Source: Pedosphaera parvula Ellin514
Lineage (GTDB): Bacteria > Verrucomicrobiota > Verrucomicrobiia > Limisphaerales > Pedosphaeraceae
Assembly: GCF_000172555.1 (NCBI RefSeq)
Contig: NZ_ABOX02000007.1
Span: 62,001-126,000 of the forward strand
Reading direction: 5' to 3'
Length of the DNA stretch: 64,000 nt
Below, one piece after another: positions 25,154 through 41,552 of the stretch (position 1 is the stretch's first letter; the number at the start of each line of letters is the position of its first letter). The notes beneath the pieces are model-generated. The model was not told the DNA's origin. It did no database searches and saw nothing but the letters and a program-made list of their open reading frames with translations. The position numbers were made by a program, and so were the translations under genes.

Positions 25154-25166
25154 GCCGCCATCCCTA

Positions 25167-26522
25167 ATGCGCTTAACGATTGTTCATCCATGCATCGGCA
25201 GACGTCCGGGACAGAGTTACATTCGCACCTGGCAAATGGAGCCATTGCCAGCGGCTACGCTCGCTGGATTAACGCCGAAGGATGTTGAAATACGTTTCTA
25301 CGATGATCGTATGGAGTCGATTCCTTACGATGAGCCCACCGACCTTGTAGCTCTCAGCGTGGAAACGTATACAGCAAAACGGGCGTATCAAATCGCGACG
25401 GAATATCGGAGGCGCAAGGTGCCAGTTGTCATGGGTGGATTTCACGCCAGTCTCTGTCCGGAGGAGGTGACACGTTACGCTGAGTCTGTTGTCTGCGGGG
25501 AGGCAGAACGGATATGGCCGCAGGTCATTGATGATGCGCGACACGGCTGTTTGCAAAAGCTCTATCAGCAAACCGGCCGCCCTTCGCTATCCGGTTTGCG
25601 GCCAAACAGAGCCATATTCCGGGGAAAACGGTATTTACCCATTGGACTGGTGGAAGCTGGACGAGGTTGTCATTTCAAATGCGAATTTTGCGCCGTACAA
25701 ACCGTATTTAACTCCAACCAAACTCGCCGTCCCATCGATGAAATCCTCGAGGAAATCAGGACGTTAAAGAACGAAAAGAAGCTGTTCTTTTTCGTGGACG
25801 ATAACATCACTTCCAACCTGGCCGAAGCCAAGGAGTTCTTTCGCGCACTTATCCCACTGAACATCCGTTGGGTCAGCCAGTCGAGTATCAATGCGGCGCA
25901 TGACGATGAGTTTCTGGAGTTGCTTGTGCGTAGCGGTTGCCAGGGTGTACTGATAGGTTTCGAAAGCCTAAACCCTGCGAACCTGCGCAAAATGAACAAG
26001 AGTTTCAACACGATGCGAGGTGGCTTTGAGCAGGCATTGGCGAATTTGCGCCGTCACCGTGTTCGGGTTTACGGCACGTTTGTCTTCGGTTACGACGGTG
26101 ACACTCCGGAGAGTTTTGGAGAAACAGTTGAATTTGCCCAAAGACACGCACTCTATATCGCCGCGTTTAATCATCTCACGCCATTTCCCGGCACACCGCT
26201 ATATCAGCGCCTGCAGGCAGAAGATCGTTTGCTTTATGAGGCATGGTGGCTCGATGACAATTACAGCTATAACAAAATACCGTTTCGCCCAATCGGCATG
26301 ACTCCGGAAGCATTGCAAAAAAACTGTCTTGCCGCCCGGCGCAAATTCTATTCATGGCCCAGCATTCTCAAACGCAGCTGCGACCAGGTGAACAGGGATA
26401 ACTGGTTTATGTGGCGAAACTTTTATCTCATCAACGGACTGCATCGGAACGATGTCAGCCTGCGCGACCATTATCCATTGGGAGACGAATCATGGCAGGG
26501 ACAATTATTGCTGGCGCAGTAA
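25167..26522 (+). CDS. B12-binding-type radical SAM protein 2
   Basis: A 451-residue relative of the preceding protein with the same layout: N-terminal B12-binding-like domain (MRLTIVHPCIGRRPG, LVALSVETYTAKRAY, VVMGGFHASLCPEEV), then the cluster motif AGRGCHFKCEFCAVQ near residues 165-176, FFVDDNITSN and LIGFESLNPANL. The similar length and architecture suggest a tandem duplication that has diverged. Each copy may act on a different position of the chain or they may form a pair. The 3' end overlaps the next gene by 31 bp, indicating translational coupling within the cluster. Confidence 0.87.
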   Translation: MRLTIVHPCIGRRPGQSYIRTWQMEPLPAATLAGLTPKDVEIRFYDDRMESIPYDEPTDLVALSVETYTAKRAYQIATEYRRRKVPVVMGGFHASLCPEEVTRYAESVVCGEAERIWPQVIDDARHGCLQKLYQQTGRPSLSGLRPNRAIFRGKRYLPIGLVEAGRGCHFKCEFCAVQTVFNSNQTRRPIDEILEEIRTLKNEKKLFFFVDDNITSNLAEAKEFFRALIPLNIRWVSQSSINAAHDDEFLELLVRSGCQGVLIGFESLNPANLRKMNKSFNTMRGGFEQALANLRRHRVRVYGTFVFGYDGDTPESFGETVEFAQRHALYIAAFNHLTPFPGTPLYQRLQAEDRLLYEAWWLDDNYSYNKIPFRPIGMTPEALQKNCLAARRKFYSWPSILKRSCDQVNRDNWFMWRNFYLINGLHRNDVSLRDHYPLGDESWQGQLLLAQ

Positions 26523-27673
26523 AGCCCAAAATCACTCAAGGCGTCACATTTTTTCTGGCTGCTAAAAGTGATGACGCAGAAATCCGCCAATTATTGCGTG
26601 AGACCGCGATGAATGGCGAGGTGCAACTCTCGCTTGAACGCGAACCGGATTTTTTCGAAGACATTCCGTATCTTGGCGAGCAGAAAACGACCGTTATCGC
26701 TCGCGAGGGAAATCGACTGGTGTGCGTGGGCAGTTGCTCAATCCGTTCCCGCTTTGTAAATGGAAAACCGCAACGTGTTGGTTATCTCACGGGATTGCGC
26801 CTTAACGCCAAATCTGCCGGTCGTTTTGATGTGTTACGGCGCGGCTACCGCTTCTTTTCTGAACTTCAAAAATCCGAACAAGCCGACTGCTACTTCACCA
26901 GCATTGCGGAGGGAAATGAACGGGCCATTCAATTTCTCGAGCGCGGTCTGCCCGGCATGCCGGTCTATAAGTTTCTATGCGGCTTTGCAACACTCTTAAT
27001 TCCAGTTCCCCGCGGTGTAAAAGGTCAAAGCAAAGCGAACGCCAAATCGCAATTCTTCACCGGAGGGAATGGCTGGCAGATCAGCCCGGGACAAGAACAG
27101 GATGTAGCTGAACTTTGCGCAGGCCTGAACTCTCAGGCTCACGATTATCAACTTTCCCCCTGCTGGACTCCCGACAATATCGCCGCGTTAAAACATTTGG
27201 GACTTGGGTTGAAGGACTTTTGCATTGTCCGGGAAAATCAACGAATGATTGCCTGTGCAGCGGTTTGGGACCAGCGCTCGTTTAAACAGACCGTGGTTCG
27301 TGGTTATAGTCGGAGACTTGCTTTCATCAGGCCTTGGATAAACGCAGCGGCATTTATGGCTGGTCGTCCAGGGATGCCTTCAGTCGGTTTAACTTTGGCG
27401 CACGCCCCGGTTTGTCATCTGATGGTTGCTGAAGACCAACCAGCCATTTTAGTCGCTTTAATCAAGGAGCTTTTTCTAAAGGCTGCGAGCAAACAAATCG
27501 AGTTTTTGACTCTCGGCTTCGCAGCGGGCGATCCAAGATTGCAAACTGTCCTTTCCAACTTTCCTCATCATCAATACAAGAGCCGCCTTTACACTGTGCG
27601 CTGGCCCGGAACTGACAGGGCAGAGCCTTCTCCCATTGATGGCCGACTCAGCCCGGAGGTGGCATTGCTATGA
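26492..27673 (+). CDS. GNAT-fold acyltransferase-like protein
   Basis: A 393-residue protein starting MAGTIIAGAVKPK; an earlier in-frame ATG at 26411 lies deep inside the radical SAM gene. The N-terminal half reads as a GNAT domain: FFLAAKSDDAEIRQLLRE, then VIAREGNRLVCVG, the strand YLTGLRLNAKSAGRF with the turn expected before the CoA-binding helix, and TSIAEGNERAIQFLERG. The C-terminal half (about 200-393) looks like a second, degenerate copy. This two-GNAT arrangement occurs in uncharacterised proteins. It probably transfers an acyl or aminoacyl group to a lipid intermediate, but the substrate is unknown. It overlaps both neighbours. Confidence 0.6.
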   Translation: MAGTIIAGAVKPKITQGVTFFLAAKSDDAEIRQLLRETAMNGEVQLSLEREPDFFEDIPYLGEQKTTVIAREGNRLVCVGSCSIRSRFVNGKPQRVGYLTGLRLNAKSAGRFDVLRRGYRFFSELQKSEQADCYFTSIAEGNERAIQFLERGLPGMPVYKFLCGFATLLIPVPRGVKGQSKANAKSQFFTGGNGWQISPGQEQDVAELCAGLNSQAHDYQLSPCWTPDNIAALKHLGLGLKDFCIVRENQRMIACAAVWDQRSFKQTVVRGYSRRLAFIRPWINAAAFMAGRPGMPSVGLTLAHAPVCHLMVAEDQPAILVALIKELFLKAASKQIEFLTLGFAAGDPRLQTVLSNFPHHQYKSRLYTVRWPGTDRAEPSPIDGRLSPEVALL

Positions 27674-28404
27674 AGGCCATGAAATCTGAAATAGCGCATG
27701 AAGTTGTCTCGCGAGCAGCTCTAACACGAGTTCAAACGCAGGGAATGTACGATTTGCTAGCTTCGTATTTCGAAGGAGTATCTCCTGAACAATTCGCGTT
27801 TGATCTCGCGGAAAAAAACTGGGTCATCTTGCTTATGCGCGGTCCCCGTCTCGTCGGTTTCTCGACCTTGCTGGTGTATGAGACCACGTTTGAGCAGGAA
27901 CCGCTCAGTGTGGTTTATTCAGGGGATACGATTGTAGCCCCCGAAGCTTGGGGAAGCATGGCCCTGCCCCGCATCTGGATCGCATCAATAAATCAACTTC
28001 GAAAAGTGTTTCCGCGAGGACGTTATTACTGGTTACTCCTCACTTCCGGCTTTCGCACCTACCGATTTCTTCCAGTGTTCTGGCGGGAATTTTACCCACG
28101 TTTTGATTATCCGACGCCGAGAAATCCAAAAGCCCTCCTTGACCACCTCGCCCGCGAACGGTTTGGCACACAATATGATTCTCAACTGGGCATCGTTCGG
28201 TTTGCCCATCCGCAACAACTGCGGGGCGAAATGAATCAAATACCCAAAGCCAGAATGACAGATCCACATGTCGTATTCTTCTCGCATCGCAATACCGGCT
28301 ACGGGCGTGGAGATGAATTGGTGTGCCTGACTGAACTTGCTTCAGCAAATCTAACCGCAGCAGGGCACCGCATGGTTGATTCGAAACTTTTGTGCATCCC
28401 ATAG
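27670..28404 (+). CDS. Uncharacterised GNAT-like protein of the cluster
   Basis: A 244-residue protein, not firmly recognised. It starts 4 bp inside the previous gene (ATGA overlap) and ends 13 bp inside the GH3 gene, so it is coupled to both. Segments such as NWVILLMRGPRLVGFSTLLV, then VYSGDTIVAPEAWGSMALP and YYWLLLTSGFRTYRFLPVFW look like the central sheet of an acyltransferase with a substrate-dependent helix. The C-terminus (DPHVVFFSHRNTGYGRGDEL) is hydrophilic. No signal or membrane helix. An acyltransferase role is only a guess from fold impression and from the neighbouring GNAT gene. Confidence 0.45.
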   Translation: MKAMKSEIAHEVVSRAALTRVQTQGMYDLLASYFEGVSPEQFAFDLAEKNWVILLMRGPRLVGFSTLLVYETTFEQEPLSVVYSGDTIVAPEAWGSMALPRIWIASINQLRKVFPRGRYYWLLLTSGFRTYRFLPVFWREFYPRFDYPTPRNPKALLDHLARERFGTQYDSQLGIVRFAHPQQLRGEMNQIPKARMTDPHVVFFSHRNTGYGRGDELVCLTELASANLTAAGHRMVDSKLLCIP

Positions 28405-30032
28405 CCACAATAGCAAATTCAATCTGGAGCGTTACCAATATTCCGTCATATTGGCGGTTTCGCGAGGCGCTCTACCATCCGGGAGCAGTGCAGCAAAAAC
28501 GTTTAAATTTTTATCTGCGCCGAAGTATGCACACAGCTTTCGGCAAAGCTCATGGTTTCCAGGATATACAGAGTTATACCGACTTTGCGGAGAAGGTGCC
28601 GCTCACGGACTATGATGCGCTGCTTCCGTGGATTGACCGCATCCGCCAGGGCGAACAATGCGTACTGACGAACGAACCAGTTACTCACCTTGTACCCACC
28701 AGCGGAACCACGGGTGCGCGGAAGCTCATTCCATTCACGAAAGGATTACAACGCGAATTTAATGCGGCGATCGGCCCCTGGCTCATCGACCTGCAATCCC
28801 AGGCTCCAGGACTGCTCGGCGGCCCCGCTTACTGGTCCATAACACCTGCGATCCGTCCCAAACAGGCTGAAACTTCTGTTGTTCCGATCGGTTTTGAAGC
28901 CGATACCGCCTATCTTGGCGGAATTAGGAAGAAACTGGTGGATGCCGTGATGGCTGTCGGCTCGTGGGTGCAGCATGCCGATTCAATTGAAGCCTTCCGC
29001 TACATTACGCTGCTCGCCTTGCTCCGTTGCCCCGAGTTGCGACTTATTTCCATTTGGCACCCTTCATTTCTTTCATTGTTACTGGATGGTCTTCCGAGCC
29101 AGTGGGAAACTTTACTCACCGATCTGGAACAAGGAACCTGTAAATACGCCGAGGCTTTGCCACCAGAAATGCGGCGCGCTTGTTTTTCACATCCCCTTCC
29201 CAAACATGCGCGAGACTTACGCCGCACGAATCCACTATGCCCCAGGGAAATCTGGCCAAAGCTGTGTGTAATCAGTTGCTGGGCCAACGGAGCATCTGAA
29301 TTAGCCGCAAAGGAACTCGGAAAACGTTTCCCAGGCTTGCTGTTGCAGCCGAAAGGCTTGATTGCTTCGGAAGCTTTCGTCACGCTACCTTTCGGCTCGT
29401 ACCAACCATTGGCAATCCACTCTCATTTCTTTGAGTTCATCGATGCAGATGGCCGAATCCTTCTCGTGGACACTTTAAAGGAGGGGGAAACTTACGAGGT
29501 TGTCGTGACAACGGCGGGAGGACTTTGGCGCTATCGCCTGGGAGATCGCGTGCAGGTTTCTGGATTCGTCGGAAAAACTCCATCGCTACGTTTCCTCGGT
29601 CGGTCAGGAAATATCTCAGATCGCTTTGGAGAAAAACTTTCAGAAGCTTTCGTCGCACAGGCTATTCATGAATGCTTTGATGAGCACACATTACCACGAT
29701 TTGTCCTGCTTGCTCCAGAGGAGGACGCTCATGGCTGCCGATATACGATTTACGTGGAAGGTGTAATCCAAACCAACCAGGTAGAAAAACTCGAGCATCT
29801 GTTGCGCCAAAATCCTCATTATGCTTACTGCCGTGACTTGGGGCAACTTCTGTCCCTTCGTGCATTCATTATTAACAAAAACGGATACGAGCTTTATGTC
29901 GAGCGACTGGCAGCGCCCGGTGCGCGGCTGGGCGATATTAAACCCGTGATCCTCAGTTCTCTATCGGGCTGGCAGAACGTCTTTCCTGGAGCACACATCG
30001 AGGCTCTCTCCAATGTGGACGCATCAAAATAA
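28392..30032 (+). CDS. GH3-family acyl-acid amido synthetase-like ligase
   Basis: A 546-residue member of the GH3 branch of adenylate-forming enzymes. The nucleotide loop is VPTSGTTGARKLIPFTKG near residue 103. SEAFVTLPFGSYQPLAIHSHFFEFID and LWRYRLGDRVQVSGF are further adenylation motifs, followed by FLGRSGNISDRFGEKLSE before the mobile C-terminal domain. GH3 enzymes activate a carboxylate as acyl-AMP and join it to an amine. In this cluster it could activate a fatty acid for amide formation or load it onto a carrier. It overlaps the previous gene by 13 bp and is followed 23 bp later by a ketosynthase gene. Confidence 0.85.
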   Translation: MHPIATIANSIWSVTNIPSYWRFREALYHPGAVQQKRLNFYLRRSMHTAFGKAHGFQDIQSYTDFAEKVPLTDYDALLPWIDRIRQGEQCVLTNEPVTHLVPTSGTTGARKLIPFTKGLQREFNAAIGPWLIDLQSQAPGLLGGPAYWSITPAIRPKQAETSVVPIGFEADTAYLGGIRKKLVDAVMAVGSWVQHADSIEAFRYITLLALLRCPELRLISIWHPSFLSLLLDGLPSQWETLLTDLEQGTCKYAEALPPEMRRACFSHPLPKHARDLRRTNPLCPREIWPKLCVISCWANGASELAAKELGKRFPGLLLQPKGLIASEAFVTLPFGSYQPLAIHSHFFEFIDADGRILLVDTLKEGETYEVVVTTAGGLWRYRLGDRVQVSGFVGKTPSLRFLGRSGNISDRFGEKLSEAFVAQAIHECFDEHTLPRFVLLAPEEDAHGCRYTIYVEGVIQTNQVEKLEHLLRQNPHYAYCRDLGQLLSLRAFIINKNGYELYVERLAAPGARLGDIKPVILSSLSGWQNVFPGAHIEALSNVDASK

Positions 30033-30055
30033 TGTGAGATGAATTCCAACAACAA

Positions 30056-31486
30056 ATGATGAACATTGGAATATCTTCCGTTGGACTGGCCAGTGCACAG
30101 GGCAGCGTGGCGGATATTTTGCAATCGGCTTCGCTCAACAAGGCCAGCAATTTGCCCTGGGAGTCAGGTCCATGGACCACTTGCCGACTCTGCCGTCCTG
30201 CTCGCGACATCGATGCCTCGCTCTCGGGCAAAGCGCGTTGGCAAAGACTTGCCAGGCTCGCTCTGCGGGATTGTCTCAACGGGAACTCGGTGGTATCTGG
30301 AACTCCTCTCATTGTGGCGTCAAGCAATGGTGCAGCCGATAAACTTGAAGACACAATCTGGAATAATTCTTTTGTAACAAACGGTCTGTTCCAGGATACG
30401 CCATGGGAAGGTCAGCGCTTGCCGATGATCAGTGGCTCCTGCGCCTCGGGATTACAAGCACTGTGCATAGCCAGCCGTTTACTTGAAAGTGGCCACGAGC
30501 AGGTGTTCGTACTTGCGACAGATATTCTGTCACGGGCAAATCATGAAAATTTTGAAGCATTGCGCGTACTTCACTCGCAACCAACACCCTGGCAATCCAC
30601 CAATGCCGGTTTCATTCCAGGTGAAGCCGCGGTGGCTTTGCAGCTTACAAAATATTCGGGTAACACGGCCCTGCTCTCTGGTCCTGCACTTGGCCAGGAG
30701 GAAGGTTTATCCAGCACTCTCGGAGCAGTCTCTACCCCCACGCCAGAATTGATAATCGGCCAGGGAAGTGGTCCGGCACTAACCGACAATTTTGAATTGA
30801 ATGAGGTTAAATGCCACGTGAATATGCAGGTGCCTTTAACCACCCCCCTCTTGCATTTTGGGCATACCAACGGTGCCTCGGGATTGCTCTCGATCGCCCT
30901 TGCAGCATTAATGCATAAAACCTCAACCAGGCTTCCGGTACTCTCCATGGAACATCCGACTGCCAGCGATGGAAGATCGCTCGCAAATCACGCCGCCTCG
31001 CGCGACACCATGGTTATCTGCCGTGCTTTGAGTGGTGCTTGTGCCGCAGCGCGAGTTGGAGGCGCAGCTCTGACCACGACAGCCAACAACCCGAATGGGA
31101 AGAACTGGGCAACCTTGAGCACAAGAACGCCTCTGATAAATCCAATCCTGCGACAGATTGCTGAGAAAGCAGCGCAGCATCGCCCTCTGCAGCCCCCAGA
31201 CCTTCTTTTGGTGAGACTGGAAAGGCCCATTCTCCCACTGAAAACGGCACAGATTGGAGGCAGACTTCTTCCAAGTGCCATCCTTGAAATTACACCGGGA
31301 TTTATTCCCCAACTAATCGCGCGCTGCTGGGGATTCCTGGGAGCTGCGATCTGTGTTGTTGGTGACGAAGACACCGAGACGGCTGCAAATGAAATGATAC
31401 AGGCTTGTCGCGCTTCAGGTCTCATGGTTTGCTTGGTGGAAATTCGTGGGAGCGGAGAAAAACGTCATGTCCATTGGAATATCTGA
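30056..31486 (+). CDS. Ketosynthase-type protein with altered triad (KS1)
   Basis: A 476-residue thiolase-fold ketosynthase. The nucleophile region is SGSCASGLQALCIA (Cys near residue 129). The position of the usual HGTGT histidine reads GQGSGPALTD near residue 235, so the first catalytic His appears replaced by Gln. The second His is kept in LLHFGHTNGASGL near residue 268. The C-terminal 150 residues extend past the fold and are unrecognised. The enzyme may therefore use a Cys/Gln/His set, condense with altered chemistry, or only transfer acyl groups. Its end overlaps the following reductase gene by 20-41 bp. ATG codons at 30056 and 30059 are both possible. Confidence 0.75.
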   Translation: MMNIGISSVGLASAQGSVADILQSASLNKASNLPWESGPWTTCRLCRPARDIDASLSGKARWQRLARLALRDCLNGNSVVSGTPLIVASSNGAADKLEDTIWNNSFVTNGLFQDTPWEGQRLPMISGSCASGLQALCIASRLLESGHEQVFVLATDILSRANHENFEALRVLHSQPTPWQSTNAGFIPGEAAVALQLTKYSGNTALLSGPALGQEEGLSSTLGAVSTPTPELIIGQGSGPALTDNFELNEVKCHVNMQVPLTTPLLHFGHTNGASGLLSIALAALMHKTSTRLPVLSMEHPTASDGRSLANHAASRDTMVICRALSGACAAARVGGAALTTTANNPNGKNWATLSTRTPLINPILRQIAEKAAQHRPLQPPDLLLVRLERPILPLKTAQIGGRLLPSAILEITPGFIPQLIARCWGFLGAAICVVGDEDTETAANEMIQACRASGLMVCLVEIRGSGEKRHVHWNI

Positions 31487-32243
31487 AAATAGATTTAAAG
31501 GTTTACTGACCGGGAAAAGGATTTTGGTCACCGGCGGTTCCGGTGGAATTGGCAAAGGTATTTGTGAAGTCCTTGCCCGCGAAGGGGCTCAGGTGGCGTT
31601 CACATGGAATGGTAATTCCACAAACGCGGCGGCGACTGAGTCGCTGATCCTTCAACAAGGAAACGAATGCCTGAGCTTGCAGGAGGATTTGCGTGAAGGT
31701 GCGGCTGCAGAACGTGTCGTTAAAGCAGTCGAAGACAAATGGGGTGGGATCGATGGCCTTGTGAATAATGCTGCTGTCAGCGAAGCAATCCCCTTCGTGC
31801 TCATCGAGGATACAGATATCGCTGACCTGATGGAGTTAAATTTCTTTGCGACATTTCGCCTGTGCAAAGCCGCCCTCCGCAGAATGATCCGCCAAAAGAA
31901 CGGCCGCATCGTCAACATCAGTTCAATCGCGGGCACCAGGACGATTCCAGGTCCGGTTCATTATGCCGCGAGTAAAGGAGCCCTTGAAGGATTGACCCGT
32001 AGTCTCGCACACGAGGTAGGCCCTTACGGCGTGTTGGTGAATGCGGTGGCAGCTGGAATCTTTGAAGGCGGACTTCGCTCCACGATCCCTGAGCACCATC
32101 AGAAGCGTTACGTGGATGCGTGTTCGCTCTCCCGCATCGGACAACCAACCGAGTGCGGTGAACTGGTCGCCTGGCTGCTTTCGGACCGTAATACTTACAT
32201 GAATGGCAACGTCCTCTTTCTTGAGGGAGGCACGCTCGCGTAA
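31467..32243 (+). CDS. 3-oxoacyl-ACP reductase-like SDR
   Basis: A 258-residue short-chain dehydrogenase/reductase, FabG type. The cofactor loop is VTGGSGGIGKGI. The NNA strand motif is VNNAAVSEA. Catalytic Ser, Tyr and Lys are in NISSIAGTRT and HYAASKGALEG. The Gly-rich turn and acidic residue pattern do not decide between NADH and NADPH. It would reduce the beta-keto group made by the ketosynthases of the cluster. ATG at 31467 is preferred; one at 31446 would add seven residues. It overlaps KS1 and lies 28 bp before the Tes-like radical SAM gene. Confidence 0.88.
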   Translation: MSIGISENRFKGLLTGKRILVTGGSGGIGKGICEVLAREGAQVAFTWNGNSTNAAATESLILQQGNECLSLQEDLREGAAAERVVKAVEDKWGGIDGLVNNAAVSEAIPFVLIEDTDIADLMELNFFATFRLCKAALRRMIRQKNGRIVNISSIAGTRTIPGPVHYAASKGALEGLTRSLAHEVGPYGVLVNAVAAGIFEGGLRSTIPEHHQKRYVDACSLSRIGQPTECGELVAWLLSDRNTYMNGNVLFLEGGTLA

Positions 32244-32271
32244 TGCTTTCCAAAACAGATCATAAACAAAC

Positions 32272-33798
32272 ATGAATTTCTCCCTGCCACCTCTCACGAA
32301 GCAAGATCGCGACGCCTCATTCCTTTCTTACACGCGCTCGATCTGCCCGGAGTGCAAACGCAATATTGATGCTCACATCGTCTTGCGTGGTGATAAAATC
32401 CTCATGCAAAAGCGATGTCCGCAACATGGTTTCTTCGAAGTCGAAACCTCCAGCGACGCCGATTACTACATCAATTCACTCACTTACACAAAACCAGGAA
32501 CCATGCCGTTGCAATTCGCCACAAAGGTGGAACATGGTTGTCCTTCCGATTGCGGGCTCTGCCAGGATCACCAGCAGCATACCTGTTCGCCCATCATCGA
32601 GATCAATGACGTGTGCGACCTCACCTGCCCGGTTTGCATCGTGCGCAACCAACAGCGCTATGCAATGACCTTCGATGAATTTAAGGCTGCCGTGGACGCC
32701 ATCGTTGCCGCCGAAGGTGAGTTGCCTATCTTACTGCTCTCCGGCGGAGAACCCACCTTGCACAAACAGTTCTTCGAATTTTGCGACTATGTTCTACGGG
32801 GACCGCATGCCGGAAAGATCAAGCGTCTATTGATCTCCACTCATGGCCGCAAGCTCGCCAACAATCGTGAATTCGCGGAGCGTTTCAAGGCTGGCGGCAT
32901 GTACGCTTCGCTGCAATTTGATTCGTTGAAGACGGGCGTATATCCAAAGATCCGTGGCGTTGAACTTTTCGACATGAAGATGAAATGCATCGAGGTCATC
33001 AAGGAACTGGATATTCTGACCGTATTAGTGCCTACGATTTCGAAGGGAGACAATAGTGATGAACTCGGTGCTTTGCTGGAGTTCGGCCTGGCAATGAATC
33101 AGGTTTCAAGCATAGTCATCCAACCGATGGCGCATACGGGTAATGGTGGTGATTTCTATCACAAGAATCCCGCAGGTCATCGGCTCACCATGCCCGAAGT
33201 ACATCAACTCATTGAAGAACAAACCGGCTGGTTCAAGCGCAAATACTTTCATCCAGTCCCCTGCTCGCACCCAAGCTGTTACACCGCCACCTATCTTTTT
33301 CGCATGAATGATGGGCGGTTCGTGCCGCTCCCTGAATTCGTCAACATCCGTCAATACCTGGATGCCATGGCCAACCGCACCGTCCTGCGCACTGATAGTG
33401 CTTTGGAAAAAATGCTGTTCGATTCCATTACCAATCTCTGGTCCACGAGCAAGGTCGGTGATGAATCGCAGATCATTCTCGACTCATTGAAAAGCTTCCT
33501 GAAGGAAACTTTCAATTCCCGCAATCCCCTCGCCCACGATCAGATCGAAAGAATTGCTGAAGCGAGGTGCAAGGCCATCTTCATCCATGCGTTTATGGAT
33601 GCGTGGGACCTCGACGTGACGCGTTTGAAGAAATGTTGCACCAGCTATGTCCTGCCCGATGGCAGGATCATGCCCGGTTGCTCTTACAACAATCTTTACC
33701 GGCACAAGGACAAGCGTTTCTTTCCGCTTGCCTCGCCGGTTGTGCCGGAGCCAATCCGCGTCAACGGTAATTCCATCTCAACGCCGGATAAAAGTTAA
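32272..33798 (+). CDS. Tes/MJ0619-like radical SAM protein
   Basis: A 508-residue radical SAM protein with three Cys-rich parts. First is an N-terminal CPEC ... CPQHGFF pair (near residues 25-53), like a small metal-binding knuckle. Next is GCPSDCGLCQDHQQHTC (near 88-104), followed by the SAM cluster motif INDVCDLTCPVC (Cys-x3-Cys-x2-Cys, near 115-122). Two Cys-rich segments follow near the C-terminus (CSHPSCY, then CCTSYVLPDGRIMPGCSYNN), probably for auxiliary clusters. This arrangement is that of the family containing tetraether lipid synthase, which joins carbons of two lipid tails, and its bacterial relatives. Placement between a ketoreductase and a carrier protein supports a lipid-chain substrate. 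The exact reaction is unknown. Confidence 0.8.
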   Translation: MNFSLPPLTKQDRDASFLSYTRSICPECKRNIDAHIVLRGDKILMQKRCPQHGFFEVETSSDADYYINSLTYTKPGTMPLQFATKVEHGCPSDCGLCQDHQQHTCSPIIEINDVCDLTCPVCIVRNQQRYAMTFDEFKAAVDAIVAAEGELPILLLSGGEPTLHKQFFEFCDYVLRGPHAGKIKRLLISTHGRKLANNREFAERFKAGGMYASLQFDSLKTGVYPKIRGVELFDMKMKCIEVIKELDILTVLVPTISKGDNSDELGALLEFGLAMNQVSSIVIQPMAHTGNGGDFYHKNPAGHRLTMPEVHQLIEEQTGWFKRKYFHPVPCSHPSCYTATYLFRMNDGRFVPLPEFVNIRQYLDAMANRTVLRTDSALEKMLFDSITNLWSTSKVGDESQIILDSLKSFLKETFNSRNPLAHDQIERIAEARCKAIFIHAFMDAWDLDVTRLKKCCTSYVLPDGRIMPGCSYNNLYRHKDKRFFPLASPVVPEPIRVNGNSISTPDKS

Positions 33799-33810
33799 GG
33801 AAGCTGATCC

Positions 33811-34095
33811 TTGAACACATCAGATTTAACGAACGAATTGAGGGAATTAATCCTCCGCTCGGCGCCGGATCCAAACCAAGCTGCTGCTGTTGAATCCTGC
33901 GGCGCAGATGAGCCTTTGGATACATTGATTCCTTTCTCCTCCGTTATCGTTCTGGGACTCATCATCGCCGTCGAGGATCGTTATGAGGTCAAAGTGACCC
34001 GCAAAGCCTTCGTGGATGCGCTTGCCGGTGGAGCAACACTGAACAAACTAGCCACGATGGTCAGAGAACTTAAAGCAACATCGGATGAAAATTGA
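33811..34095 (+). CDS. Acyl carrier protein-like (ACP1)
   Basis: A 94-residue four-helix carrier-type protein beginning at a TTG with AAGG about 10 bases upstream. The segment IPFSSVIVLGLIIAVEDRY aligns with the DSLxxVELVMxLEEEF helix II of acyl carrier proteins. The second Ser is at the phosphopantetheine position, but the usual Asp before it is Ser. Length and acidic helix III fit. It likely carries the growing chain to the surrounding radical SAM and FAS-type enzymes. It overlaps the third B12-type radical SAM gene by 11 bp, which makes that enzyme the best candidate for acting on its cargo. Confidence 0.72.
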   Translation: MNTSDLTNELRELILRSAPDPNQAAAVESCGADEPLDTLIPFSSVIVLGLIIAVEDRYEVKVTRKAFVDALAGGATLNKLATMVRELKATSDEN

Positions 34096-35404
34096 TATCA
34101 TCCATCCAGCTCATTACCGCGACGATGGCACAGTGGTTCAAGCCAAGGGCTGGATCGACCGTCTGGGTGCTTACCTTCCTCATTTGGGTCCGCCGTTGTT
34201 GGCCGCATTGACCCCAGACCGTCATGAAGTCCGACTGACGGAGGAATATCTCGAGGACATAGATTTTGAAAGCGATGCGGATGTGGTGGCCCTTTCCGGT
34301 CAGATCATGCAGTTTGATCGCTGCAAGGATATCTCTGCAAAATTCCGCGCTCGTGGAAAAAAGACCGTGCTCGGTGGATATCTTCCTTCAATGCTGCCGG
34401 ATCGAGTGGAAGGGTTTTTCGATGCCATTGTCCTGGGAGAAGGCGACGAAATCTGGCCGGAAATCTTGAATGACATCGAACAGGGAAAACTGAAGAAACG
34501 CTATCAATCCACTCGATCGGTCGATATCAGCAACCTGCCAATCCCCCGCTATGACTTGATCAAGAAAGATCGTTTGGTGGTTTATCCGGTTCAAGCCACG
34601 CGCGGCTGCCCGTTTACCTGTAACTACTGCTCCATTGCCGCCGTGCATCAGGGGGCGCATCGTAAACGTCCCGTCGAGCAGATCCTCCGTGACATCGACG
34701 CCACCGGTAGCCGCAACATCAACATCTGCGACGATAACCTATGTGAAGACATCCGCTTTGCTGACCGACTTTTCACTGCCATGGCCGGAAGCCCAGTCCG
34801 CTGGGGAACGCAAACCACCATCAATGTCGCCCGGCATCCCGGATTGCTGCAAAAAGCACGGGCGTCTGGCTGCACCCTCATGGCGCTCGGCGTGGAAACA
34901 TTTTCCGTAAAGAACCTCGAGGACGTAAACAAGACCTTTCACGCCGTCGACAAATATGCCGAAGGATTCCGCCGCATCATGGATGCCGGCATCAGCCCTC
35001 ATGCGCTTATCATTTTCGGACTGCCAGACGATAAGCCCGATACTTTTAAGAAAACGGTCGATTACCTGGAAAATCTTAAAGTGCCGGTTGCTCAAATTTT
35101 TATTCTCACCCCTTATCCCGGCACGCCGATGGGAGATCGGATTCATCGAACGGGAAATGTTTTTGATCAGGAACTCAGTCATCTTCGCGAGCCCTACGTG
35201 GTCTTTAAACCCGACGTGCTGACACCAGACCAGCTCAAGGAAGGCTGGTGGGGCGCCTTGGAACAATTCTATTCCCTCCGTTCCATCTTCAAGCGCATCA
35301 TCATGCGTCGGACTCCAAATAATCTTTTGGTCAATCTTGCTACAAATCTTTACTACTGGTCAAAAGTAAAACGTGGCATTCATCCAGTCTACTTCGGGTT
35401 CTAA
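34085..35404 (+). CDS. B12-binding-type radical SAM protein 3
   Basis: A 439-residue protein with the same two-part design as the two earlier genes: N-terminal B12-binding-like domain (MKIDIIHPAHYRDDG, DVVALSGQIMQFDRC, TVLGGYLPSMLPD) and a radical SAM barrel with ATRGCPFTCNYCSIAA (cluster Cys near 174-181), ICDDNLCEDIRFA and MALGVETFSVKNLEDV. It is the shortest of the three and separated from them by seven genes, so it is probably an independent step and not part of the tandem. The C-terminal helices (FKRIIMRRTPNNLLVNLATN) resemble the other two. Its end overlaps the possible longer start of KS2. Confidence 0.87.
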   Translation: MKIDIIHPAHYRDDGTVVQAKGWIDRLGAYLPHLGPPLLAALTPDRHEVRLTEEYLEDIDFESDADVVALSGQIMQFDRCKDISAKFRARGKKTVLGGYLPSMLPDRVEGFFDAIVLGEGDEIWPEILNDIEQGKLKKRYQSTRSVDISNLPIPRYDLIKKDRLVVYPVQATRGCPFTCNYCSIAAVHQGAHRKRPVEQILRDIDATGSRNINICDDNLCEDIRFADRLFTAMAGSPVRWGTQTTINVARHPGLLQKARASGCTLMALGVETFSVKNLEDVNKTFHAVDKYAEGFRRIMDAGISPHALIIFGLPDDKPDTFKKTVDYLENLKVPVAQIFILTPYPGTPMGDRIHRTGNVFDQELSHLREPYVVFKPDVLTPDQLKEGWWGALEQFYSLRSIFKRIIMRRTPNNLLVNLATNLYYWSKVKRGIHPVYFGF

Positions 35405-35444
35405 ACCGTGCTCTCGAAACCTCTCAATATATCCAGGCAATAGG

Positions 35445-36182
35445 ATGTGCTATCTCGTCGCCTCAACAATAGTTGAAAGCATCGCCCCAGTGCAGGAAAG
35501 CGATCCGGAGCTTTGGCGTCAGATTCGTCGATATAATCTGCCAGTCCAGTTGGCTTTGACTGCCGCTCATGAAACCGCGAAGACCGCTGAAAATCCAGCG
35601 AGCGCTGCCTTGTTCTCGTTGGCTCCATGCCAATCTGGCTCCCTGGATTTGCATCGCTGGACGCGCCTCGCGGCAACTGCCGGGCAGGACGGGCATATCG
35701 GCCATCTCCGGGTCAATCCAACCCACACCCTCCATGCCGTAGATAATCTGGCTCTATCCGCTTTCGCCATCATGCATCGCAATCATGAACACTGCCTTGG
35801 ATTGGGCGGTGCTGCAGGCCAGGCCTGGTGCGGACTGGAAGCCTTGCACGAGCGCCTCAGGGATGGAAACGAAACCGAAGCATTTTTGATCGCCGGAGAT
35901 CAGGCAGATGACCAGGGCACAACCGGCTCGGGTATTGCCCTGCTCTTCTCCAAAAGTCCAAAACCTTATGTTCCACTCGGACGTTTGGTAAAGCTGGTCG
36001 CGGTGCAACGGGTTCGCCTGGACACACCAGCCGCACTGGAACCCCATGCTGCGGCAGGCCTGATTTCTCTTGTTGCTGTTATTGGCAACCACAAAACCGG
36101 CCGGCTCTCCTACACCGTTCCTTCGAATCACGGCAACGGCATGGACTTGATAACTGTCGAGATGGAGTTCTCACGATCATGA
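35445..36182 (+). CDS. Truncated ketosynthase-like protein without active-site Cys (KS2)
   Basis: A 245-residue protein matching only the N-terminal half of a ketosynthase (the 'ketoacyl-synt_2' type seen in aryl polyene clusters). The expected ACASG region reads GLGGAAGQAWCG, so the catalytic Cys is missing at its normal place, and the HGTGT and GHxxGAxG half is absent. The family layout (LALTAAHETA, RLAATAG, HTLHAVDNL, FLIAGDQADDQG) is otherwise clear. Such proteins act as chain-length-factor-like partners of an active ketosynthase. The active partner would be KS3, which starts 4 bp inside this gene. The start is the ATG at 35445. Confidence 0.72.
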   Translation: MCYLVASTIVESIAPVQESDPELWRQIRRYNLPVQLALTAAHETAKTAENPASAALFSLAPCQSGSLDLHRWTRLAATAGQDGHIGHLRVNPTHTLHAVDNLALSAFAIMHRNHEHCLGLGGAAGQAWCGLEALHERLRDGNETEAFLIAGDQADDQGTTGSGIALLFSKSPKPYVPLGRLVKLVAVQRVRLDTPAALEPHAAAGLISLVAVIGNHKTGRLSYTVPSNHGNGMDLITVEMEFSRS

Positions 36183-37327
36183 TTGCGAACCGCGTTTTCA
36201 TCACCGGCACAGGCGCTATCTCTGCATTGGGAACGAGCACCGACGCGTTGTGGAACGGGCTTCTCTCGAGTCGCAGCGGTGTGCGAAGTCTTCCTCGATT
36301 TGTTGTCGCCGGGCTGCCCATGACAACCGGCGGTGAAGTGGATGCAGCGTCCCATGATCAGATTAACCGTGATGAAGTCATCGCGGGCCTTGTTATCGAT
36401 GAGGCTCTCTCAGTTGCCGGTTTGCAATCTGATTCAGTCGGATTCGTATGGGCAACCGGCCTGGATACCTTTCAAATCGGCTCGGAGGGGCTCGCTCTTC
36501 GTTCTGCAGGAGCTTGTTTCAATGCTCTTGCCCGGAGGTTCTGCGCACCTCGACGCATGATTGCTACCGCATGTGCGTCGGGCACCCAGGCCATTGGTGA
36601 AGCATTCCAAATTTTACGACGCGGACACTGCGACGCCATTGTCGCTGGCGGCTCAAGCGTCATGCTCACCCCGTTCTATTTGATTGGCTTCGCTGGTCTG
36701 CAGGCAATCGCTGTGGATCAACCAGGAGAAGATCCGGTTACTGCCTGTCGCCCTTTCGACAAGCGGCGCCGAGGATTTGCTCTGGGAGATGGAGCAGGAG
36801 CGCTGGTTCTGGAGACTCTCGCTTCAGCCCGAAAACGCGGCGCGACTTTGCTGGCTGAAATCACCGGATTCGGCACCAGCCAGGACGCCTTTGATTTGAA
36901 CCGCCCTCCTGAAAATGGTGCCGGGGCTGAACTCAGCATGCGACGCGCCCTGGAGGATGCCTGTCTTCGCCCTGCCGACATCGGAGCCATCAATGCGCAT
37001 GGCACCGGAACCTTTGCCGGCGATCTTGCCGAAGCTGCTGCCTTGCGAAGTCTCTTTGGCAATAACCGTGTCCCGGTTTCCAGCGTTAAGGGAGCCATCG
37101 GTCATACCATGGCCGCGGCCGGTGCGTTGGAGGCCATTGTGGCACTTAAGACTTGCACCACGGGCATCATTCCTCCCACGGTTAATCTAACTGAACCGGG
37201 CGAAGGCTGCGAACTTCACCATGTGATCGGCAAACCCATCAGTGCCGCAGCCCAAACTGTTTTGTCGGTTTCCTTTGGGATGGGCGGGCAGAATGCAGCG
37301 CTTATACTTGCGAATGTATCGAGTTGA
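36179..37327 (+). CDS. Beta-ketoacyl-ACP synthase, canonical triad (KS3)
   Basis: A 382-residue FabF/FabB-type condensing enzyme with a complete Cys-His-His triad: TACASGTQAIGEA (Cys near 132), NAHGTGTFAGDLAE (His near 274) and VKGAIGHTMAAAGALEAI (His near 308). It extends acyl chains by two carbons from malonyl-ACP. Translation is coupled to the Cys-less KS2 (ATGA overlap), and a carrier protein starts immediately after its stop. This is the KS/partner/ACP order of heterodimeric type II systems. Most likely the catalytic condensing unit of the cluster. Confidence 0.9.
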   Translation: MIANRVFITGTGAISALGTSTDALWNGLLSSRSGVRSLPRFVVAGLPMTTGGEVDAASHDQINRDEVIAGLVIDEALSVAGLQSDSVGFVWATGLDTFQIGSEGLALRSAGACFNALARRFCAPRRMIATACASGTQAIGEAFQILRRGHCDAIVAGGSSVMLTPFYLIGFAGLQAIAVDQPGEDPVTACRPFDKRRRGFALGDGAGALVLETLASARKRGATLLAEITGFGTSQDAFDLNRPPENGAGAELSMRRALEDACLRPADIGAINAHGTGTFAGDLAEAAALRSLFGNNRVPVSSVKGAIGHTMAAAGALEAIVALKTCTTGIIPPTVNLTEPGEGCELHHVIGKPISAAAQTVLSVSFGMGGQNAALILANVSS

Positions 37328-37750
37328 ATGGATATGAAAGACCAAAACATTTTGGATGTCGTTTCGGCATCGGTTCGCACCACACTCGGCCTCAGAGATA
37401 ACGAACCGGTCCGACCTGACCAACTGCTCTTTTATGACTTTGCCTTCACCTCCATGGACATGCTCGATTTGATGTTCCGGATGGAGGAACATTTCAAAAT
37501 CATGATTCCTGAAGAAACCTTATATGGATTGGCAAAAGGTGATCTCGCAGAAAATGAGTTTGCCAATGAAGGAGTGCTGACAACAACGGGCCGGGAACGT
37601 TTGATGAGTCTTTTGCACGATTCGCCTCGGGAGATTTTTCCAGAGCGCATCCATGTGAAAACTTTTCCCCGATATTGCACCGTCGGGGCCATGGTCCGAC
37701 TGGTGGAACATCAAATTACAATCAAAGAACAAGTCAGATGTTCGAGTTGA
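37328..37750 (+). CDS. Acyl carrier protein with C-terminal extension (ACP2)
   Basis: A 140-residue protein. The first 80 residues are an acyl carrier domain with the attachment Ser in FAFTSMDMLDLMFRMEEHF (near residue 42; the usual Asp before Ser is Thr). A 55-residue extension follows, rich in charged residues (GRERLMSLLHDSPREIFPERIH), which is uncommon for stand-alone carriers. It starts one base after the KS3 stop and overlaps the dehydratase gene by 13 bp. The extension may dock to a partner; similar long carriers are known in other type II clusters, but I cannot assign a partner. Confidence 0.78.
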   Translation: MDMKDQNILDVVSASVRTTLGLRDNEPVRPDQLLFYDFAFTSMDMLDLMFRMEEHFKIMIPEETLYGLAKGDLAENEFANEGVLTTTGRERLMSLLHDSPREIFPERIHVKTFPRYCTVGAMVRLVEHQITIKEQVRCSS

Positions 37751-38196
37751 TTCAATCCATCTCCGTCCAAGCTGAAGCAGGCAGAGCCTCCGGCAAGGCG
37801 TCCGTGCCTGCCGATCATCCGTTGTTGGCCGATCATTTTCCCGGCATGCCGATCCTGCCGGGTTCATTTCTCGTGGAGTTGGCTTCGCAGATTGCCGGCC
37901 CGCTGGCAGAAGAGGTGGTCAAGCTTCATCATGGCTTTGATCGTTGGGCCATTCCCGGAATGATTCGGAATCTAAAATTCCTCGGTCCGTCCAGCTTGCC
38001 TTCCCAACTTTCAATTTCCGTAGCAGTCCTCCGCCATGAGGCCTCGAATGTCCTGCTTGATGTTACGGCGGAACAAAATTCCGAGCTGATTCTGCGGGGC
38101 GAATTGGTCATGATGATGATTGAAACTTCTTCAGCCTGGGACGAAGCAATCACGGCACGCAACAATCGCTTGGCGAAATGGAAAGCTGCCTCATGA
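37738..38196 (+). CDS. FabZ/ApeI-like 3-hydroxyacyl-ACP dehydratase
   Basis: A 152-residue hotdog-fold dehydratase. The active-site segment is LLADHFPGMPILPGSFLVELASQIAG, described by its His in DHFPG (near residue 34) and Glu in VELASQ (near residue 47), both of the FabZ type. It would dehydrate the hydroxyacyl chain made by the SDR. The ATG at 37738 is chosen; earlier in-frame starts lie inside ACP2. It completes an elongation module (KS2, KS3, ACP2, dehydratase) and overlaps the next acyltransferase gene by 4-19 bp. No enoyl reductase of the FabI type is present, so products may stay unsaturated. Confidence 0.83.
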   Translation: MFELIQSISVQAEAGRASGKASVPADHPLLADHFPGMPILPGSFLVELASQIAGPLAEEVVKLHHGFDRWAIPGMIRNLKFLGPSSLPSQLSISVAVLRHEASNVLLDVTAEQNSELILRGELVMMMIETSSAWDEAITARNNRLAKWKAAS

Positions 38197-39521
38197 CCGG
38201 CACAAAACCAATCCAACATCCCCTTTCACCTGCAGATGCCTTTTTTGTGGCCTATCAGCAAGGCTCGGGAATCCTCATGCAACTCGGCTTTGAACTGGAA
38301 CTTGAGGGCGCGATAAGACGAACGGACCTGGAAGGCATGCTTCTACATCTGGTTGGCCGCTGGCCACAATTAGGACAGAAAGTTCGCCATCAAGGTCTGG
38401 GACTTGTCTGGGATGGCGCTTGTCATGTGGAAGAAATGTTGAATGTGGCATCGGATGAGGCGCTGCTGAAAGAATGGCGCAATCTGCCGTTGGACCCATT
38501 TTGTGAACCGCCCTTTCAACTTCTATGGTTCGCTAACAGCCAAACACATCGACTGGTGGTGCGCGCCCACCATGCCGTGATGGATGGTGAAGCAATGTTG
38601 ACAGTATATTTGGAAATGATGAGATTTTTGTCTCGTTCAGTGGGGGGACAGTCCTTGCTTCCCCCAGTGGCAGTACTACCTGCAAAACCGATGAGCGCGG
38701 TCGAGTTACTCGCTCCGCTTTGTTCTTCAGAAGCGTGGGATCACCTCCGACGCATGTCCAGGCAAGCAAAAGCTAATGTCTCAGCTCGCCTTGCCGTACG
38801 CAGCTACGCTCCCGGACCGACTGCCACCTGCGAGCGGTTGTTGGAGGGAGAGGGTCTCAAAATGCTGTCAGAGTTGGCTGCGATCAACCGAACCCAACCA
38901 CTCTGGCTCTGCGCCGCAGCCTGGATGCGATCGCTCAATGGTTGGAATCGAGCCTCCAACAAAGGATCCAATCCAATCATTTCTTTGGAGTTTCCAGTGA
39001 GCTTGCGCCGCCACAAGGCTTCCCGTGAACTTCTCGGAAATCTGGTTTCCCCGTTGATTCTGTCTGGCGATGCGACCCAATGCGTGGGCACGCTTGCCAA
39101 CGCGCTTAAGCGGCAGTTCATCGGCGCGATTCGTCAACGTCAGCATCTGGCGTTGCCGCAGCTTATGTGTCCGTTGCGCTTTTTGCCTTGGACATTGTTT
39201 CGTCGCCTGGTCATGACACCCCTCGCCACCGGCGCGGCCACCAGCCACTTTACATGGCACGAAAATGAAAACGATCGCTCCTCCAATGTATCGGAATGGT
39301 CCCATGGCCGCCTGCAAATCACAAATCGTCGTATCTACACACCGGTCTGCCTGCATATGGGAACCGCCCTCGTAGTGGTATCCACAAATAATTCGCTGCT
39401 ATTCTCCATCACGTATCGGCTGAGCGCACTTTCTGCTGAAGATGCCGACAAACTCGCCGACTTGCTACAGGCCGAACTCATGCGCTCACCCATGGCACTG
39501 ACACACCAGGATGCAAACTAA
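38193..39521 (+). CDS. Condensation-fold (HHxxxDG) acyltransferase
   Basis: A 442-residue member of the CoA-dependent acyltransferase/condensation superfamily. The catalytic motif is HHAVMDGEAML near residues 126-136. The opening (HPLSPADAFFVAYQ) recalls wax ester synthase/diacylglycerol acyltransferase and Pap-type enzymes. It would move an acyl group from carrier or CoA to an alcohol or amine, so it is a candidate for the final esterification of the cluster lipid. The ATG at 38193 gives the family-like N-terminus; one at 38178 adds five residues. It overlaps the dehydratase gene and, by 11 bp, the flavin enzyme gene. Confidence 0.8.
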   Translation: MTGTKPIQHPLSPADAFFVAYQQGSGILMQLGFELELEGAIRRTDLEGMLLHLVGRWPQLGQKVRHQGLGLVWDGACHVEEMLNVASDEALLKEWRNLPLDPFCEPPFQLLWFANSQTHRLVVRAHHAVMDGEAMLTVYLEMMRFLSRSVGGQSLLPPVAVLPAKPMSAVELLAPLCSSEAWDHLRRMSRQAKANVSARLAVRSYAPGPTATCERLLEGEGLKMLSELAAINRTQPLWLCAAAWMRSLNGWNRASNKGSNPIISLEFPVSLRRHKASRELLGNLVSPLILSGDATQCVGTLANALKRQFIGAIRQRQHLALPQLMCPLRFLPWTLFRRLVMTPLATGAATSHFTWHENENDRSSNVSEWSHGRLQITNRRIYTPVCLHMGTALVVVSTNNSLLFSITYRLSALSAEDADKLADLLQAELMRSPMALTHQDAN

Positions 39522-40590
39522 GCGTCAGTCGCATGTCATCATCATTGGCGCCGGCCCGGCGGGGCTCGGAGTTGCCGCTTGTCTCGCCCGGAAGGATATC
39601 CCATTTACACTGCTGGAACGCGGTCCCGCCATCCTCACTGGACTCCGACAGGTAGATCCGGCGATGACTCTTCTCTCCCCTGCCCGACTTTCCCGCTTGC
39701 CTGGTATGGAATTGGAAAAGGGAACTCCAACCTATCTAAGATTCAGTGATCTGCTGAGTGAACTGCAATGCTACGTCCAGCAAAACAATCTTTCAGTTCG
39801 CACAGATTCCGAGGTCGTTTCAATCCGGCATGGTTCCGAAGGTTTTTCGGTGCAACTCAGAAGCTCGGCCGGCATCACCGAAAGCATCCTTGGTAGCCAT
39901 GTTATTAACGCCACGGGAATCATCAGTGCCCCACAACTCCCTGAAAACTTTAATCCCGCAGAATGTTCCTTTCGCTGGCTGCACAGTTTGGAAACCCGCA
40001 TCTCGCATCTCAAATCTTCCCGTCGTCTCCTCGTCGTTGGCGGGGGTCCATCAGCGGCTGAGGTGCTGAACAACTGGCTCGAAGTAAGACGTGATGAAGA
40101 TCGCACCTGGCTTTCCTTGCGCTCCCCACTGGTTGCCCTGCCGCACCGGGTCTTTGGCATCGATGTGCATTACTTCGGCTGGCTGCCGGAACACTTTCCA
40201 ACCCGGTTTCTTGGAAATCGATCCATTACGGTTCGGGAACCAATGCTTGGCCGTGAGATTCCGCGCGCCATCAACCGCGGCCGGATCAGCCGTGTAGCAG
40301 CCGTTCTACGCTATGAGGGCAGCGGAGTAATCATGAAAGATGCCACTCAATTAGAACCCGACCTGGTGGTATTTGCCACCGGCTTTAGTTACTCATCCAG
40401 CCACTTGGGCGACCTCGTTGATTACAATGCATTGGGACAACCCATTGCGCGCGCTTGTGAAAGCACCCGCACGCGACGCCTTTACCTTTTGGGGCTTCCC
40501 CGTGGAAGAACTTTTGCCTCGCACTATCTGCGTGGGACCGCACGCGATTCTGAATACGTGGCCAAACGCATCATGAAGGATCAACCATGA
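39511..40590 (+). CDS. FAD-dependent monooxygenase-like oxidoreductase
   Basis: A 359-residue flavoprotein with two nucleotide-binding loops: IIIGAGPAGLGVAACLARKD for FAD at the N-terminus and LLVVGGGPSAAEVLNNW near residue 175 for NAD(P)H, then VFATGFSYSSSH, the ATG motif of flavin monooxygenases. It belongs to the broad class of FMO, Baeyer-Villiger and N-hydroxylating enzymes; the substrate is unknown. Overlapping start and end codons with both neighbours (11 and 4 bp) tie it to the cluster. Oxygenation or epoxidation of the lipid chain is a fair guess. Confidence 0.82.
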   Translation: MQTKRQSHVIIIGAGPAGLGVAACLARKDIPFTLLERGPAILTGLRQVDPAMTLLSPARLSRLPGMELEKGTPTYLRFSDLLSELQCYVQQNNLSVRTDSEVVSIRHGSEGFSVQLRSSAGITESILGSHVINATGIISAPQLPENFNPAECSFRWLHSLETRISHLKSSRRLLVVGGGPSAAEVLNNWLEVRRDEDRTWLSLRSPLVALPHRVFGIDVHYFGWLPEHFPTRFLGNRSITVREPMLGREIPRAINRGRISRVAAVLRYEGSGVIMKDATQLEPDLVVFATGFSYSSSHLGDLVDYNALGQPIARACESTRTRRLYLLGLPRGRTFASHYLRGTARDSEYVAKRIMKDQP

Positions 40591-41552
40591 AAACGGCTCA
40601 GGTAATCGGCTTTGGGGGAGTGGACCGAATTCAAATCATTGATGTGCCCGCTCCCAAGCCGGGCATAGGTGAGGTGCTGATCCGTATCAAAGCATGTGGT
40701 CTCAATGGTTCCGACATTTTGCAGCGTGAAGGAATTTATCCTGGCGGACCGAAGCCCCCCTTCTTTCCGGGATCAGAGGCGGCTGGCATCGTGGAGATGC
40801 ATGGCAGCGGCGTAAATGGGCCACCAATTGGAACAGCAGTCACCTTTCTGACCAGCGGTGGAGCGCACGCCGAGTTCGCAACGGTCAAAGCTGATAGCTG
40901 CATTCCATTGCCGGAAACGTTGACCTTCGTCGAAGGGGCTGCGTTTCCTGTTCACTATCTGACAGCCTATCATGCGCTCACTACCGTGGCTCATGCCAAA
41001 CCGGGAGAAACTGTTGTAATCCACGCTGCTGCGGGTGGCTTGGGTACGGCAGCTGTCCAGATCGCCCGGATATTAGGGCTCAAAATCCTCGCCACTGCCT
41101 CCACTCCTGAAAAACGCAGACGTGTAGTCGAACTCGGTGCCGACTTAGCGGTCGATTACTCAGACTTCGAATCCGCATGCCGCGATCTGACAGGCGGGAA
41201 CGGCCCGGCACTTATCCTCGACTCCATTGGTGGTGATATCTTTCGCCGCAGTCTCGCACTCCTGCCTCCGCTTGGCCGTTTAGTGGTGATGAGTATTTCC
41301 AGCAATGAAACACCAAAAATTGACGCGGCATCATTATTGTTCCGCTCCAAGTCGGTCTCCGGTATTCACCTGAGTGCATTGCTGACTCAACGCGAGTTAA
41401 TCCGCAGATCGTTGGAAGAACTGATGAATTGGATTGGCGCAGGAAAAATAAGGATTCAAGTTGGACACACCCTGCCATTGGCTTCTCTCCGTGAAGCCCA
41501 CACGCTTCTGGCCAGCCGCAAAAGCTATGGGAAAATTGTTCTAACGACCTGA
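40587..41552 (+). CDS. Quinone-oxidoreductase-type MDR reductase
   Basis: A 321-residue medium-chain dehydrogenase/reductase without the zinc-ligand cysteines, so of the quinone oxidoreductase/enoyl reductase kind. Visible motifs are IKACGLNGSDILQREGIYPG near the N-terminus, FFPGSEAAGIV, and the NADPH loop HAAAGGLGTAAVQIA near residues 149-163. In polyketide and fatty-acid pathways related MDR enzymes reduce enoyl groups, so this may fill the missing enoyl-reductase step. It is the last gene of the block, overlapping the flavin enzyme by 4 bp. After its stop the cluster gives way to a decayed integrase region. Confidence 0.85.
   Translation: MKTAQVIGFGGVDRIQIIDVPAPKPGIGEVLIRIKACGLNGSDILQREGIYPGGPKPPFFPGSEAAGIVEMHGSGVNGPPIGTAVTFLTSGGAHAEFATVKADSCIPLPETLTFVEGAAFPVHYLTAYHALTTVAHAKPGETVVIHAAAGGLGTAAVQIARILGLKILATASTPEKRRRVVELGADLAVDYSDFESACRDLTGGNGPALILDSIGGDIFRRSLALLPPLGRLVVMSISSNETPKIDAASLLFRSKSVSGIHLSALLTQRELIRRSLEELMNWIGAGKIRIQVGHTLPLASLREAHTLLASRKSYGKIVLTT

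Follow-up and report, generated by a model that had tools for sequence, protein, structure and literature searches.

A tetraether lipid synthase-like radical SAM protein encoded within a type II PKS/FAS-like gene cluster of Pedosphaera parvula

The 64,000-nucleotide stretch of Pedosphaera parvula Ellin514 DNA analysed here (the window) encodes a radical SAM protein related to tetraether lipid synthase (Tes) in the midst of a type II PKS/FAS-like gene cluster. The gene (32272-33798, + strand; 508 residues, ATG start) was assigned on the basis of the motifs, the Pfam and PDB matches and the predicted fold of its product. We give somewhat less than an even chance to the reading that this enzyme belongs to a bacterial clade of the Tes superfamily that has specialised to such clusters, where it would act on the acyl product by C-C coupling. 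Bacterial Tes homologues as such are already known; a search of the open-access literature found no description of Tes-like enzymes tied to carrier-protein clusters.

An earlier note on this DNA had described the reading frame and its motifs, and both are present as given: C25-P-E-C28, C49-P-Q-H52, G89-CPSDCGLC97 and 111-INDVCDLTCPVC-122. The motifs are more than chance resemblances, since the protein matches the Pfam families Zn_ribbon_HMPTM (64.4 bits, cut-off 27) and Radical_SAM (55.2 bits, cut-off 29.5), and since Tes from M. jannaschii (7TOL) is its sole sequence relative in the PDB with E <0.01 (E = 3.3e-59). The predicted model (pLDDT 88.6, pTM 0.89) aligns with the Tes structure 7TOM over 441 residues (Z 49.5, 3.4 A), the runner-up structure being MoaA (Z 19.6). 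As the model covers the entire Tes fold, the helical cap and the two auxiliary domains are predicted to be present. A placement among peptide-modifying or SPASM enzymes was rejected, because the other listed folds reach a Z of at most 19.6, compared to 49.5 for Tes. The shared fold, which is a predicted one here, is by itself no proof of function.

Besides the radical SAM cluster, the published structure of Tes contains a rubredoxin iron (C9, C12, C33, H36), an N-cluster (C73, C77, C80 and a His) and a C-cluster, of which Met439 is a labile ligand (PMC9433317). In the alignment, the window protein has a rubredoxin-like site (C25, C28, C49, H52), an N-terminal [4Fe-4S] site (C90, C94, C97, H100), the ligands of the radical SAM cluster (C115, C119, C122) and a C-terminal [4Fe-4S] site (C336, C455, C470), the last three residues being the putative C-cluster ligands. 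All auxiliary-cluster ligands, whose absence would have spoken against the superfamily assignment of the earlier note, are thus present, and together with the Z of 49.5 to 7TOM they uphold that assignment. The position of Met439 is occupied by His, and Tyr459 is retained. In archaea both residues are invariant among 1000 homologues, and an M439A variant of Tes is still active (PMC9433317). The three C-cluster cysteines are found in 37 of the 38 aligned relatives that are linked to a ketosynthase (KS), and His occupies position 439 in 34 of these 38 rows. The change from Met to His may alter the chemistry of the enzyme relative to that of Tes.

The Tes-like gene is one of a run of co-directional, tightly spaced genes (23750-41552, all + strand), the core of which has been conserved in four phyla; the Tes-like protein (76-90% identity) is one of its best-preserved products. 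Within the same order, a genome of the same family (G458) contains the orthologous operon (Tes-like protein 90% identical), and seven further genomes have two or three Tes-like genes in tandem beside type II FAS/PKS genes, an arrangement seen in many relatives. A scan covering 84,980 species genomes yielded near-identical operons in Acidobacteriota (L062; Tes-like 80%), Myxococcota (L063; 76%) and the gammaproteobacterial Candidatus Parabeggiatoa (L064; 77%), next to looser Tes-like/type II clusters in additional phyla. The placement of the host in Verrucomicrobiota agrees with its MetRS, which is 72-80% identical to the enzymes of same-order and same-family genomes and 45-46% identical to those of two named Verrucomicrobia, and reaches at most 42% with the other phyla tested. 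No close relatives of the Tes-like protein were found when viral contigs were searched.

The core of the cluster starts with a KS-like protein (KSlike1, 30056-31486), which keeps the active-site Cys and a His, has Gln in place of the first His and carries an extra C-terminal domain, followed by a FabG-like SDR ketoreductase (KR, 31446-32243; identity of 70-80% to its counterparts in two sister operons, L050 and L064). The Tes-like gene comes next, and then a gene for a small carrier-like protein (ACP1, 33811-34095) of 94 residues with a conserved IPFSS motif, which adjoins the Tes-like gene in L050, L063 and L064 as well. Downstream lies a cobalamin-binding radical SAM enzyme (B12rSAM3, 34085-35404; CPFTCNYC), 72-90% identical in L050, L062 and L064; L063 has no counterpart, and the minimal shared gene set therefore consists of Tes-like protein, KR, CLF-like protein, KS, ACP and dehydratase (DH). 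The chain-length/cyclization-factor-like (CLF-like) partner (KSlike2, 35445-36182) lacks the KS triad and has a thiolase fold in truncated form; enzymes with a thiolase fold match its predicted structure, one of them being the ishigamide KS/CLF (6kxf_B). It is followed by a FabF/AmcF-like type II ketosynthase with a Cys-His-His triad (36179-37327), an acyl carrier protein (ACP2, 37328-37750; 140 residues, PF00550, conserved FTS motif) and, by family assignment, a FabA/FabZ-like dehydratase (37738-38196). The next product (38178-39521) is a putative acyltransferase, condensation- or WS/DGAT-like, with an HHxxxDG motif that is conserved as HHAVMDG in L050 and L062; its match to Pfam Condensation is weak (12.9 bits, under the 30.6 cut-off). 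The cluster closes with a protein assigned by family as FAD-dependent oxidoreductase/monooxygenase-like (39511-40590) and an MDR-family quinone/enoyl reductase-like protein (40587-41552), which also adjoins the dehydratase in L063.

The type II PKS/FAS set is encoded, i.e. a KS with its triad, a triad-less partner, an ACP with its Ser motif, KR and DH. The earlier note had placed the Tes-like gene between a ketoreductase and a carrier protein in a FAS-type cluster. The ketoreductase upstream and the PKS/FAS setting stand, but the downstream neighbour ACP1 is carrier-like by motif and size and gave no match when searched against Pfam and NCBIfam; the ACP recognised by Pfam is the one at 37328-37750.

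Upstream of the core, two cobalamin-binding radical SAM genes (23750-26522), both with an intact radical SAM Cys motif, precede two small genes (26411-28404; products of 420 residues without a family and of 244 residues, weakly GNAT-like) and a gene assigned to the GH3 family of acyl-adenylating/amide-forming enzymes (28392-30032). We rejected this block as part of the cluster core and treat it (23750-30032) as accessory, because the GH3 gene has no counterpart in three of the four genomes with sister operons that were tested, and the match in the remaining one is weak (27%). Immediately upstream, PAP2-like, fatty-acid-desaturase-like, Rieske-type oxygenase and hydrolase-like genes were assigned by eye (19019-23600), which are possible but uncertain members of the same lipid pathway. 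Past its downstream end, the cluster is closely followed by a gene for tRNA-Leu (TAA anticodon; 42273-42360, + strand). Among phyla, the operon has a patchy distribution. A recent foreign island is not apparent from base composition (GC 51.9-53.5% vs 51% in the surroundings of the cluster), and a search for a repeat of the 3' end of the flanking tRNA found none.

In a phylogenetic tree of 179 rows of Tes-like proteins, 37 of the 38 rows with a nearby ketosynthase fall into a single clade of 66 rows (SH-aLRT 99) that is distinct from archaeal Tes. The window protein belongs to this clade and not to that of archaeal Tes (SH-aLRT 99-100), and in a reduced tree the split that sets off the KS-linked clade has a support of 98/99 and occurs in 100% of 200 bootstrap trees. 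A phylogeny had been suggested in the earlier note as a check; the protein stays within the Tes superfamily and does not move to a distant peptide-modifying subfamily. When the count was restricted to loci flanked by at least 8 kb of sequence, a KS was found within 8 kb in 17 of the 24 clade loci vs 1 of the 53 loci outside (Fisher p 1.1e-10), proportions that hold for this sample only, because the clade was partly sampled by its own conserved patterns. KS-linked members come from eight phyla, i.e. Verrucomicrobiota, Planctomycetota, Myxococcota, Bdellovibrionota, Acidobacteriota, Pseudomonadota, Muiribacteriota and Riflebacteria. Clade membership is a statement of homology and not proof of an identical reaction; divergence in reaction outcome is common in radical SAM families.

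Some members of the tandem clusters deserve separate mention. The third Tes-like paralog of some of them (L052:11372-12787, L053:15088-16503) forms its own long-branched group, and the L052 copy has Met, not His, at position 439. In the tandem cluster L058, an HpnH-like radical SAM gene (8025-9047, + strand; weak DUF3463 match) and a SPASM-type radical SAM gene (9037-10065, - strand; weak match) were also observed, so that the tandem Tes-like clusters are very rich in radical enzymes.

In Tes, a hydrogen is taken from a saturated tail, and the C-cluster stores the resulting radical through a C-S bond until it is coupled to a second radical (PMC9433317). Since the metal sites are conserved, the window enzyme is likely to take the same first steps on an acyl chain from the neighbouring enzymes. 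We propose that KS and the CLF-like protein would make a reduced or unsaturated acyl chain together with KR, dehydratase and ACP, after which SAM would be cleaved at the CxxxCxxC cluster of the Tes-like enzyme and an H atom abstracted from an unactivated chain carbon; the intact catalytic motifs, the fold and the conserved gene order all point to these two steps. The retained ligands suggest that the C-terminal [4Fe-4S] cluster would then hold the carbon radical through a C-S bond, as happens in the M. jannaschii enzyme. A second radical may attack this carbon, and the resulting C-C bond would either close a ring within one chain or link two chains. Finally, the cobalamin radical SAM enzyme may contribute another radical reaction, and the product may be freed as an ester or amide by the HHxxxDG acyltransferase or an enzyme related to it. 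The substrate could also be a free lipid instead of an ACP-bound chain. The radical C-C bond step on a carrier- or lipid-bound chain that the earlier note had suggested is thus a plausible one.

The reaction might halt at the C-S stage, with cluster sulfur delivered to the acyl chain as a thiol, thioether or thio-ring; lipoyl synthase and biotin synthase perform sulfur insertion of that kind. Such an outcome is the main rival of C-C coupling because Tes itself yields a thiolated lipid when SAM is limiting (PMC9433317), and it would fit a C-cluster that is intact with a non-Cys residue (His439) at its fourth position. We nevertheless consider it unlikely, as the N-cluster and the rubredoxin site are retained too, like in Tes, and as a non-systematic look at the conserved core noticed no dedicated sulfur-relay gene. 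C-C coupling is regarded as the most likely outcome because the complete Tes metal set has been kept.

Equally doubtful, in our view, is a desaturation, methylation or isomerisation of the acyl chain in which the auxiliary clusters would serve for electron transfer only. MJ0619 was originally proposed to be a pterin methylase, a proposal reflected in the Pfam name HMPTM. The cobalamin radical SAM partners are of a type that typically methylates, and related solo clades without a C-cluster imply that other chemistry exists in the family. On the other hand, the C-cluster ligands that the Tes mechanism needs occur in all but one of the 38 KS-linked members.

It is improbable that the window gene encodes a true bacterial Tes that would use acyl chains from the FAS genes to form membrane-spanning, brGDGT-like lipids, even though the superfamily fold and the ligands agree with this and brGDGT production has been proposed for bacterial Tes homologues (Zeng et al., PMC8941075). 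The wording of the earlier note finds no support as far as Tes proper is concerned: the protein scores 272.1 bits with the Tes equivalog model NF045702 (cut-off 450), branches outside the archaeal clade and has His for Met439, and its gene is tightly linked to those for ACP, KS and CLF, not to glycerolipid genes. Moreover, an Acidobacteriota genome with the same operon has two archaeal-type Tes genes of its own (L142, L149). That the Tes-like gene lies among the FAS genes by chance, without a functional connection to them, is very improbable, for although co-occurrence does not by itself prove a shared pathway, the gene order is kept in four phyla and the KS linkage is significant.

Other bacterial Tes homologues fall into different groups. 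L142 and L149 (both from the Pyrinomonadaceae genome G681), L175, L184, L195 and L197 (Planctomycetota) group with archaeal Tes in the tree and are better brGDGT candidates than the window gene; L142 retains Met439 and Tyr459, and G681 additionally carries a PKS-linked Tes-like operon. The genome of the window has a second Tes-like gene (G000:C4:9883-11349, i.e. L030:9883-11349, - strand) beside a candidate lgt-like gene (by eye). This second copy is a member of a solo clade that is widespread in the order; it has lost the N-cluster Cys residues and keeps those of the C-cluster. In a big solo bacterial clade (L076, L081-L087, L091, L094-L096 and other Bacteroidota loci), the C-cluster Cys residues are replaced by Ala, Ser or Glu/Asp, and because of this loss its members can probably not run the Tes mechanism. 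Tes homologues of unknown role had been noted before (Lloyd et al., PMC9433317). The division into archaeal-type, PKS/FAS-linked and solo forms minus a cluster matters for the use of 'Tes homologues' as markers of brGDGT producers.

Coupling of C(sp3) to C(sp3) at inert carbons is among the hardest reactions in biology, and was reportedly first demonstrated for Tes, on finished archaeal lipids. The pairing of Tes-like and type II genes in at least eight phyla points to an unexplored route for C-C (or C-S) bond formation on bacterial acyl chains, with accessible substrates encoded in the cluster, and the clade would make Tes chemistry testable in bacterial lipid and natural-product biosynthesis. 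We further suggest, as a plausible but rather doubtful generalisation, a widespread class of bacterial type II pathways in which one to three Tes-type enzymes would link acyl chains, bound to a carrier or freshly synthesised, at their unactivated carbons to give carbocyclic or cross-linked lipids. Such a reaction would be the bacterial equivalent of the tail-to-tail coupling in archaea, by enzymes in which His takes the labile position of the C-cluster.

Among known systems, Tes / GDGT-MAS (MJ0619; 7TOL, 7TOM; NF045702) shares with the window protein the full-length fold, four metal sites and Tyr459, but differs from it in sequence (28-31% identity, below the equivalog cut-off), clade and residue 439, and acts on isoprenoid ether lipids, whereas the window gene is part of a type II PKS/FAS cluster. 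The top NCBIfam score is that for the radical SAM (seleno)protein TrsS (NF045646; 285.8 bits, residues 20-473), far under its cut-off of 490, and unlike TrsS the window gene has no in-frame stop or Sec codon.

The candidate ladderane clusters of anammox bacteria (Kuenenia; PMC2649909, PMC4790861) are similar in that type II FAS genes with a non-canonical KS and ACPs occur together with several radical SAM enzymes, some of them of the cobalamin type. However, the cobalamin radical SAM enzymes of the window score at most 74 bits with TIGR04072 (cut-off 360), and no phytoene-desaturase homologue was seen in the operon. A link between the Tes-like protein and anammox ladderanes was not supported, as 17 HZS-positive Planctomycetota genomes, whose anammox identity is deduced from HZS_alpha frames of ~810-830 residues, contain no full-length Tes-like protein, with partial radical SAM core matches of at most 75 bits only.

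The type II PKS for cispentacin and coronafacic acid (AmcF-AmcG KS-CYF; PMC10698177) also has a KS and a short CLF-like partner without catalytic motifs; the window KS scores 217 bits with AmcF, under the 325 cut-off. In contrast to the window cluster, which has more tailoring genes, the cispentacin system as described (AmcB-AmcH, seven proteins) includes no radical SAM enzyme. Clusters labelled 'ladderane' have been reported without known function in non-anammox Verrucomicrobiota and Myxococcota (PMC9902471), and some of those tool-labelled clusters could be of the Tes-linked kind described here.
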